DNA from: Ideonella sp.
GTDB taxonomy: Bacteria; Pseudomonadota; Gammaproteobacteria; Burkholderiales; Burkholderiaceae_C
Direction of reading: 5' to 3'
DNA: 32,935 nucleotides
Assembly: GCA_025458335.1 (NCBI GenBank)
Contig: JALOSQ010000030.1
Location: 1 to 32,935 of the forward strand
Part shown: piece by piece, positions 29,397 to 32,935 of the stretch
Position numbering within the stretch: position 1 is the stretch's first letter
Layout of the letters: each line of letters begins with the position of its first letter
The notes under the pieces: model-generated
What the model was told of the DNA's origin: nothing
Seen by the model: only the letters and a program-made list of their open reading frames with translations
Database searches by the model: none
Translations under genes and position numbers: made by a program

Positions 29397-30620
29397 TCAG
29401 GGGAACGCAAAGCTCAGCGGCGGCACCGCGGGCAGATTGAGATTGACGTCCTGCTCCTTCACGGTCGCGAAGCCCGGCGCGGTGGCCTCGGCCCGGTACA
29501 GCCCGGCCGCCGGGGCATCGGCGGTCAGCGTGATCGAGGCCGGGCTGGCCGCGTAGGCCGCCCGCTGGGGTGCTGCTATCGGCAACGAGAAGCCGAAGGA
29601 ACCGTCGGCCGCATTGACCGGGCGCCCGGCGACTTCGACCGTGCGACCGCCCGCCAGGGCCTGCAGGATGCGCACGGTCGAGAGGTTGTCCGTCACCGGT
29701 GGGGTCAGCGCGACGGCGCCGTCGATCGTGCGCTCGGCACTCGTCGGCGGCGCGATGCGGACCGTGGCGGAGCCCACCAGCGTCGGCGTGGCCGCCTGCA
29801 CCGGGACGCCGGTGATCACGGCAGTGGCGCGACCCGGCGCGGTGACCACCAGGTCGTACGCCCCGGGAGGCAACAGGTTGAGCTCGAAGCGCCCCTCCTG
29901 GCCGCTGCCGGACGCGACGGGCGGCGTCGCCCGGATCACGCGCCCGCCCTGCTGGACCGACACGGAGGTGGACCCCGACGCGATGGCCGGGTCGACGAAT
30001 CCGATGACACGCAATCCGGCGTCGCTCAGGCGCGGCAGCACGGCAATGACCGGCTTGAGCAGGAACTTGCCCGAGTTCCCCGCCCTGACGACCGAGCGGC
30101 AGGCGTCGAAGTCGAGCACCACGTCGGCCAGCTGGCCCTCGGGCACGGTGATGTCGACGTTCAGCTTGAGGCCCGTCTGCTGGCCGCTCGGCGTGTCGAG
30201 GGGTCGCTCGCTGCCGCCAGTTGGCTTGACGGAATTGGCCAGCGGGTTGCCGGGCGTGTTCTGTGCGAGCAGGAGACGCAGTTGCGTGTACGTGCCGGCG
30301 GGCAGCTCGGCCTGGCCGAGCTCGGCGATCACGCCGTTGGTGAGCTTGAGCAGGTCGAAGCGCCGCGGAGCGTCTGCGAAGTCGACCACCGTGCGCCAGC
30401 CGGCGTCCGTTTCGCCCGCTGACGCCACCTGGTGCACCTGCACCGCGCGGATCGCCACGTTCACCTCGTCGTAGCCGCAGGCCGGCGCATCGGTCAGGCC
30501 GATCCGGAGCGTGCCCGACTGGGGCGAGCCGGTGCCGCCGATGCCACCGCCGCACGCCGCCATCGCGAGCACGAGTCCGGCGGCGAATGCGGTCTTGAGC
30601 CACTGCAGCGTCTTGTTCAT
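29397..30620 (-). CDS. DUF4382-domain putative lipoprotein
   Basis: MNKTLQWLKTAFAAGLVLAMAACGGG (lipobox), GTLRIGLTDAPACGYDEVNVAIRAVQVHQ...FDLLKLTNGVIAELGQAELPAGTYTQLRLLL. Confidence 0.85.
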   Translation of the reverse strand: MNKTLQWLKTAFAAGLVLAMAACGGGIGGTGSPQSGTLRIGLTDAPACGYDEVNVAIRAVQVHQVASAGETDAGWRTVVDFADAPRRFDLLKLTNGVIAELGQAELPAGTYTQLRLLLAQNTPGNPLANSVKPTGGSERPLDTPSGQQTGLKLNVDITVPEGQLADVVLDFDACRSVVRAGNSGKFLLKPVIAVLPRLSDAGLRVIGFVDPAIASGSTSVSVQQGGRVIRATPPVASGSGQEGRFELNLLPPGAYDLVVTAPGRATAVITGVPVQAATPTLVGSATVRIAPPTSAERTIDGAVALTPPVTDNLSTVRILQALAGGRTVEVAGRPVNAADGSFGFSLPIAAPQRAAYAASPASITLTADAPAAGLYRAEATAPGFATVKEQDVNLNLPAVPPLSFAFP

Positions 30621-31471
30621 GGCGAGACGTCCTCCGCGCCGGAACCGCCGGCCATGCGGCGTTCCTCGAAGTAGTAGATGCCCAGCCCGACGCGGGCCCG
30701 CGGCTGCGGGTCGTCCTGCGGACCGAGCTCGGCGTCGCGCCGTGACAGCCAGGCGTCGAAGTGCTCCAGCAGCGCCTGCGCCTGCGTCGCGCTGAGGCGA
30801 CGGAACTCCGGCAGTTCGTCCACCGGAATGCTGTCGTACATCACCTTTCGCTGGAACCGCGGGTCGGTCGCGCCGTGCCGGATGTTGTGGTCGATCGTCT
30901 CGATGAGGTCGGCCACGTCGTGGCCGAGGATCAGGAGCTTGTCGGCCTCGCTTCGCTGGGGCACGTAGGCCCGGGCGACCGGCACGAAGCGGCCGTCGTC
31001 CTGGGCCGCGACCGCACCCACGTGCAGCAGTTCGTCCAGCACGGCGCGCGCGGGCATGTCGCCGCTGTGCAGGCGCACGAGTTCCGAGAAGCTCGGATCG
31101 CCGTCGATCGGCAGCGGCACTGGCGTACCGCGGGCGTCGTGGAACCGCGGATCGCGGATCCAGCCGGCCAGCACACGCGCGGCGCGGTTGTAGCGCTCGC
31201 TAGCCAACGCCTCGGCCGGCTCGGCGTCGCCGCGGGCCCAGCGCTGCACGTCCTTGCGCGTCAGCCCGGTGAGGATCGAGACCCGCGACAGGCTCGGCCG
31301 CTTGCCTGGCAGGCCGAAGTCGGCTAGCGCCACGTCGACGTAAGCCTGCTTGGCCAGCGCCTCGAACGCCCCGAACGCGACGCCGTGACGCAAGAGCACG
31401 CGCACGAGTGGCCGCAGCAGCCGAAGGACGGCGGCGGCGAGCACCTGGTTCGAGACCGTGGGGGCGTCCAT
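30617..31471 (-). CDS. DUF6502-family protein
   Basis: AAAVLRLLRPLVRVLLRHGVAFGAFEALAKQAYVDVALADFGLPGKRPSLSRVSILTGLTRKDVQRW. Start uncertain (ATG 31471 or ATG 31492); stop overlaps the lipoprotein start. Confidence 0.78.
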   Translation of the reverse strand: MDAPTVSNQVLAAAVLRLLRPLVRVLLRHGVAFGAFEALAKQAYVDVALADFGLPGKRPSLSRVSILTGLTRKDVQRWARGDAEPAEALASERYNRAARVLAGWIRDPRFHDARGTPVPLPIDGDPSFSELVRLHSGDMPARAVLDELLHVGAVAAQDDGRFVPVARAYVPQRSEADKLLILGHDVADLIETIDHNIRHGATDPRFQRKVMYDSIPVDELPEFRRLSATQAQALLEHFDAWLSRRDAELGPQDDPQPRARVGLGIYYFEERRMAGGSGAEDVSP

Positions 31472-31643
31472 CTCTTGGGATGATCGTCCCATCAAGAACG
31501 GATCTCAACGCAAGCTTGTGATGGCTTGTAAGCACTGAGGGCCTTGTTCGGGCGGCGGTCGACGCCGACGCGAACGGTGCCTCAATCCCGACGGCATGAG
31601 CGAAGTAGTAAGTGTGCATTTGCTCACTTGATTCCGTGCCGGT

Positions 31644-31670
31644 TTAGCACTCGCGCGCGTCGAGTGCTAA
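31644..31670 (+). promoter_or_regulatory. CIRCE element (HrcA operator) upstream of rpoH
   Basis: TTAGCACTC-GCGCGCGTC-GAGTGCTAA: exact match to the CIRCE consensus TTAGCACTC-N9-GAGTGCTAA; 41 nt before rpoH ATG. Confidence 0.96.
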
Positions 31671-31711
31671 AGTCGCGGAACCTTACGGGTTTCCATGAGG
31701 TCAACAACTGC

Positions 31712-32656
31712 ATGAACACGCCCACCCCCTCGGCTGTGAACCCCGGCGTCGGCACGCTCGCGCTGCGCGACCCGTGGGCCATGGTGCCCTCGCTGGGCAA
31801 CCTCGACGCCTATGTCACCGCGGTCAACCGCATGCCGATGCTGACGGCCGAAGAGGAGCGCTCCCTGGCGCGCCGTTTCCGCGACACGGGCGACCTGCAC
31901 GCGGCGGGGCAGATGGTGCTGTCGCACCTGCGCCTGGTGGTGTCGGTGTCGCGGCAGTACCTGGGCTACGGACTGCCGCAGGGCGACCTGATCCAGGAAG
32001 GCAATGTCGGCCTGATGAAGGCCGTCAAGCGCTTCGACCCCGAGCAGGGCGTGCGGCTCGTCAGCTATGCGCTGCACTGGATCAAGGCCGAGATCCACGA
32101 GTACATCCTGCGCAACTGGCGCATGGTGAAGGTGGCCACCACCAAGGCCCAGCGCAAGCTGTTCTTCAACCTGCGCTCGATGAAGCAAGGCCTCAAGGGC
32201 GAGGCGGCCGACGGCGAGACCCACCGCGCCACGCTGACGCCCGCCGAGGCCAACCGTGTCGCCCGCGAACTGAACGTCAAGCCGGAAGAGGTCCTCGAGA
32301 TGGAGACTCGCCTCGCCGGCGGCGACATCGCGCTGGAGGCCCCCGTCGAGGATGGCGAGGAGGCGTTCTCGCCGATCGCCTACCTGGCTGACGAATCCAG
32401 CGAGCCGACGCGCGTGCTGGAGGCCCGTCGGCGCGACCGGATCGCGGGTGAAGGCATCCTGCAGGCCCTCGAGGTGCTGGACGCGCGCAGCCGGCGGATC
32501 GTCGAGGAGCGCTGGCTCAAGGTCAACGACGACGCCAGTGGCGGCATGACGCTGCACGAACTCGCCGCCGAGTACGGGGTGAGCGCTGAGCGGATCCGGC
32601 AGATCGAGTCCGCGGCGATGAAGAAGATGCGCAAGGCCCTCGAGGCGCGGCCCTGA
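31712..32656 (+). CDS. rpoH: RNA polymerase heat-shock sigma factor RpoH (sigma-32)
   Basis: LSHLRLVVSVSRQYLGYGLPQGDLIQEGNVGLMKAVKRFDPEQGVRLVSYALHWIKAEIHEYILRNWRMVKVATTKAQRKLFFNLRSMK (RpoH box); 4.2 region LHELAAEYGVSAERIRQIESAAMKKMRKAL. Start corrected to 31712. Confidence 0.97.
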   Translation: MNTPTPSAVNPGVGTLALRDPWAMVPSLGNLDAYVTAVNRMPMLTAEEERSLARRFRDTGDLHAAGQMVLSHLRLVVSVSRQYLGYGLPQGDLIQEGNVGLMKAVKRFDPEQGVRLVSYALHWIKAEIHEYILRNWRMVKVATTKAQRKLFFNLRSMKQGLKGEAADGETHRATLTPAEANRVARELNVKPEEVLEMETRLAGGDIALEAPVEDGEEAFSPIAYLADESSEPTRVLEARRRDRIAGEGILQALEVLDARSRRIVEERWLKVNDDASGGMTLHELAAEYGVSAERIRQIESAAMKKMRKALEARP

Positions 32657-32781: not shown

Positions 32782-32935
32782 TCAGGCGCCGGCCAGCAGC
32801 TTCTGCAGATCCGATGCCAGGGCCTGCGCACCGGTCCCGTAGCGCACGAACAGGCGCACCCGGCCCTGCGGGTCGAACACGTACGAGCCGGCGGTGTGGT
32901 CGATGCTGTAGCTGCCCGGGGACTTGCCCGGGACC
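32782..32935 (-). CDS. SCO1/SenC-family protein, C-terminal part (truncated by window end)
   Basis: Own translation of minus strand: VPGKSPGSYSIDHTAGSYVFDPQGRVRLFVRYGTGAQALASDLQKLLAGA*; SCO C-terminal pattern YSIDHTAGSYVFDP.GR.RLF.RYG. Confidence 0.85.
   Translation of the reverse strand, partial: VPGKSPGSYSIDHTAGSYVFDPQGRVRLFVRYGTGAQALASDLQKLLAGA

Follow-up and report, generated by a model that had tools for sequence, protein, structure and literature searches.

The rpoH gene of this Ideonella sp., which encodes the heat-shock sigma factor sigma-32, is preceded by a perfect CIRCE element. Judged by its conservation and by the bases around it, this element is very probably an operator, lying on the housekeeping promoter of the gene, at which HrcA would bind and repress. 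The window, i.e. the whole stretch of DNA that was analysed, has a length of 32,935 nucleotides. A CIRCE in front of rpoH is not a chance occurrence; it is real and widespread, and it is not unusual.

The element at 31644-31670 reads TTAGCACTC-N9-GAGTGCTAA (full site TTAGCACTCGCGCGCGTCGAGTGCTAA), has 0 mismatches over the 18 defined bases, and is the sole CIRCE match in the window when up to 3 mismatches are allowed. No CIRCE match was found in 100 shuffles, and the base composition (72% GC) predicts 2.5e-8 perfect sites per window and 2.5e-6 per genome. The ATG at 31712 follows exactly 41 nt downstream, placing the element in the promoter/leader region of a heat-shock gene, and the first-pass annotation, which had reported a perfect CIRCE 41 nt before rpoH, is borne out by these counts. 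The open reading frame was assigned to RpoH by TIGR02392 with 392.7 bits (cut-off 323.1). All features are collected in the table.

Features in and around the rpoH upstream region (positions are those of the window)
Feature	Position	Strand	Basis
CIRCE operator (predicted HrcA site), perfect consensus, spacer GCGCGCGTC	31644..31670	.	pattern and conservation
Left arm TTAGCA, possible -35 (4/6 to TTGACA)	31644..31649	+	inferred; conservation inseparable from that of the operator
Predicted extended -10, TGC + TAAAGT, last three bases outside the palindrome	31665..31673	+	conservation of T 31673
GGAACCT, sigma-E-type -35-like, architecture C	31677..31683	+	weak in the window
TCAAC, degenerate sigma-E-type -10 partner (N17), about 6 nt before the start codon	31701..31705	+	motif comparison
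rpoH, heat-shock sigma factor sigma-32, 314 aa	31712..32656	+	TIGR02392, NCBIfam and Pfam

Across the CIRCE from rpoH, two genes on the minus strand are divergent from it, encoding a DUF6502 protein (30617-31495, 285 bits) and a protein (29397-30620) that combines DUF4382 with a carboxypeptidase-regulatory-like domain. The minus strand at 32782-32934, directed towards rpoH, holds the C-terminal end of a protein leaving the window (...SIDHTAGSYVFDPQGRVRLFVRYG...). This 50-residue fragment is reminiscent of SCO1/SenC proteins but had no Pfam match.

The alignment of rpoH upstream regions in related genomes, proposed in the first-pass annotation as a check, showed the CIRCE to be kept in 110/110 family loci, of which 86 are perfect, 22 carry one mismatch and 2 carry two. 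These loci comprise 30 from whole genomes and 80 from named contigs, with a few genomes in both sets; the named contigs include Methylibium, Rubrivivax, Roseateles, Variovorax, Comamonas, Acidovorax and Hydrogenophaga. In the same order, 23 other families were sampled: 21 carry a CIRCE at rpoH with at most 2 mismatches, one has a degenerate site (4 mismatches) and one has none; shuffled upstream regions came within 4 mismatches in 3/2000 cases. For 29 further families of the class, a sample biased towards rpoH genes close to the query in sequence, the site was found in 22, corresponding to 22/23 genomes bearing hrcA and 0/6 genomes without it.

Taken over all 52 other proteobacterial families, each represented by one genome and not fully independent of each other, the co-occurrence with hrcA that is looked for in a CIRCE was found: the site stands at rpoH in 43/45 genomes with hrcA vs 0/7 without (Fisher p = 2.7e-7). 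Two genomes with hrcA are exceptions, G045, having the degenerate site with 4 mismatches, and G248, having no CIRCE at rpoH. The conservation within the family and the joint loss of site and hrcA both support the earlier claim that rpoH is under HrcA control. In G055, a genome of the same order, neither a CIRCE at rpoH nor hrcA was found, and a genome-wide search gave no CIRCE anywhere. The reversed pattern used as control, AATCGTGAG-N9-CTCACGATT, matches 18 times in this genome, far above the other genomes, and is perhaps a dispersed repeat.

We did not find hrcA in the assembly to which the window belongs (3.26 Mb, 414 contigs, 81% complete). The first-pass annotation had held that a genome without hrcA would refute HrcA control, and formally the assembly is such a genome, but it is incomplete and broken beside the place where hrcA is expected. 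The gene is present in 59/60 relatives, among them a genome of the same genus where it lies beside nadK and recN. Contig C142 (length 8814) of the present assembly shows the same gene order as far as recN and breaks off within that gene, 141 bases past the last match. The simplest reading is therefore an assembly gap, and hrcA would be located in the unassembled part; a true loss is judged unlikely in view of the contig break at recN and of the same-genus genome with hrcA. Should the lineage nevertheless have lost hrcA, the CIRCE would be a functionless relic. This is highly improbable: although the missing gene would fit, the present site is perfect, and the near-complete genomes in which no hrcA was found have lost theirs (0/7).

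To align the operator flanks, 101 diverged family loci were anchored on CIRCE, the first base of which was counted as 0. The right flank is conserved, with T at +27 in 74%, A at +28 in 96% and T at +29 in 100% of these loci, and the resulting motif TG-C-TAAnAT is an extended -10 (more loosely TGC-TAAnnT). The T at +29, which is T 31673 in the window, is found in 110/110 family loci and 42/43 loci of other families, i.e. 152/153 in total, and the A at +28 in 106/110 family loci. The window is among the four family loci without the latter; A stands at +27 in each of them (Fisher p = 1.2e-4), by which 4/6 matches to TATAAT are kept. Its TAAAGT at 31668-31673 is separated by an 18-bp spacer from TTAGCA, and TGC-TAAAGT contains the TGn, the T and A at hexamer positions 1 and 2 and the T at position 6 that define an extended -10. 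A generic sigma-70 promoter scan had no + strand match at the operator, since 4+4 matches fall under its threshold, and none upstream.

A longer palindrome recognised by HrcA was considered as the cause of the T at +29 and was ruled out: conservation is absent from the mirror position -3, which has A in just 3% of the loci, and the groES sites lack the T at +29 and carry C at +27. Conserved bases beyond the palindrome thus support the suspicion in the first-pass annotation that TAAAGT could be a -10, with the operator on the promoter. The comparison supports an rpoH operator that covers the promoter and shares bases with the predicted start signals for RNA polymerase. Transcription of rpoH would then start at about 31679-31680 and give a leader of about 32 nt.

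A role as an mRNA hairpin has been proposed for CIRCE within some groE leaders, and the 9-bp inverted repeat at rpoH could fold if it were transcribed from an upstream promoter. That the palindrome acts in this manner, controlling the stability or translation of rpoH mRNA, is nevertheless very hard to believe: the -10 fused to the right arm predicts a start downstream of the repeat, the + strand upstream has no promoter-like match, and the loss together with hrcA favours a protein operator.

Sigma-E-type elements on or beside the operator had been overlooked in the first-pass annotation. The consensus used here is of the type GGAACTT-N16-TCnAA and comes from E. coli sigma-E promoters. The GAAC core occupies fixed positions relative to CIRCE, at -15 in 23/43 loci of other families, at -11 in 35/110 family loci and at +34/+35 in 31/110 family loci; in shuffles no single place reached more than 4-5. 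In the three types, 10/28, 18/34 and 15/29 loci have TCnRA exactly 16 nt after GGAACTT; other spacings are almost never seen.

In type A, found in other families, the sigma-E-type -10 consists of the end of the CIRCE left arm and the spacer, and two of its bases therefore come free from CIRCE. Type B (Comamonas-like) has its -10 inside the CIRCE spacer, independent of CIRCE. Type C occurs in the nearest relatives of the window and has the promoter downstream of CIRCE, with its end about 5-9 nt ahead of the ATG; at the same-genus locus it reads GGAACTT-N16-TCTGA. Neither type B nor type C was found in 36/97 diverged family loci. Scored against GGAACTT-N15-17-TCnAA, the window with its GGAACCT-N17-TCAAC has 9/12 matches, a weak copy right at the threshold, and the pattern of the clade is strong. 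Given its place downstream of the operator, HrcA may not block this promoter in the clade of the window.

These elements allow another reading, where a sigma-E promoter of rpoH, instead of the sigma-70 promoter, is the main target of HrcA and the T at +29 serves some other purpose. The fixed upstream positions of the GAAC core in the other families (23/43) and the family (35/110), the peak of TCnRA partners at 16 nt and the transcription of the rpoH homologue of Bordetella bronchiseptica, fam, by SigE in vitro (PMC3490749) all agree with this. We still consider it unlikely, as the T at +29 (152/153) is more universal than the sigma-E motif, and the sigma-E-like element of the window is weak and lies downstream of the operator. 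Both sigma-70 and sigma-E promoters may operate at rpoH.

Under the preferred reading, an HrcA operator on the housekeeping promoter, HrcA in unstressed cells would occupy CIRCE, spanning -35 to -10, and block RNA polymerase. Upon heat or protein misfolding HrcA would lose activity; titration of GroEL is the model for HrcA inactivation from other bacteria. Inactivation would release rpoH and groESL together, and the new sigma-32 would drive the remaining heat-shock genes. More tentatively, at slightly below an even chance, HrcA, sigma-70 and sigma-E share a single stretch of DNA at rpoH across beta- and gamma-proteobacteria, with HrcA gating both the housekeeping and the envelope-stress transcription of sigma-32. 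As part of the same proposal, the sigma-E promoter in the clade of the window has moved just downstream and could give a nearly leaderless, HrcA-independent rpoH mRNA.

A scan of the full genome for further CIRCE sites, also suggested in the first-pass annotation, gave exactly one, upstream of groES and with one mismatch. Just before this CIRCE stands CTTGATG...CCTTATAAT, which looks like overlapping sigma-32 and sigma-70 signals. CIRCE sites with at most 2 mismatches are present in 198 of 201 family genomes, and 171/201 have exactly two. When 30 family sites were read in context, 18 lay before rpoH and 11 before groES, and the remaining one (L039), near a contig end, was assigned to neither. 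Seventeen more sites from the same genomes comprised 15 before groES, one before rpoH (L194) and one with neither gene recognised (L191). The usual HrcA regulon of the family thus appears to consist of groESL and rpoH. L191 (G184:C1:4833575-4833601) is a third perfect CIRCE in its genome; beside it neither a groES match nor an evident rpoH was found. Three CIRCE sites are also present in ten other family genomes.

The comparative-genomics proposal for beta-proteobacteria mentioned in the first-pass annotation is probably that of Permina and Gelfand from 2003. The suggestion in that annotation that the layout may be known was right. PMC545781 lists a CIRCE upstream of rpoH in Geobacter sulfurreducens at position -51 (Table 8); a survey from 2003 cited there, covering beta-, gamma- and epsilon-proteobacteria, fits the proposal mentioned. 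CIRCE at rpoH as a control point is largely already described, and the sharing of bases between operator and start signals is apparently an undescribed detail. PMC3490749 mentions neither HrcA nor CIRCE, and a paper on the sigma-E transcriptome of B. pseudomallei does not mention rpoH. Our literature search, which most subscription papers fall outside, gave no paper on CIRCE upstream of rpoH in beta-proteobacteria, nothing that links HrcA to a sigma-E promoter of this gene, and no account of the co-loss statistic, the fused -10 or the three-layout sigma-E overlay.

The HrcA repressor and sigma-32 circuits would be wired in series at rpoH in most sampled families having both, and not in one odd genome. 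The overlap of operator, sigma-70 and sigma-E signals raises the testable question of whether HrcA gates the envelope-stress input and whether the clade of the window escapes from this. E. coli, the usual model, has no HrcA and therefore cannot show such gating at rpoH.

Compared to the known HrcA/CIRCE systems of the groESL and dnaK operons, the rpoH site has the same consensus and spacing, and the groES of the same genome also carries a CIRCE, but the target is here a sigma-factor gene. The placement differs as well: at groES the operator directly follows the -10 of a CTTGAA...TATAAT promoter, whereas at rpoH it overlaps the -35/-10 itself. Geobacter sulfurreducens likewise has a perfect CIRCE directly before rpoH but belongs to a different class of bacteria, and the passages of PMC545781 consulted describe no promoter overlap. 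E. coli rpoHP3 and Bordetella bronchiseptica fam (PMC3490749) have the same GGAACTT-N16-TCnAA type of promoter at rpoH; in contrast to these, the sigma-E-type element of the window is weak and lies downstream of an operator.
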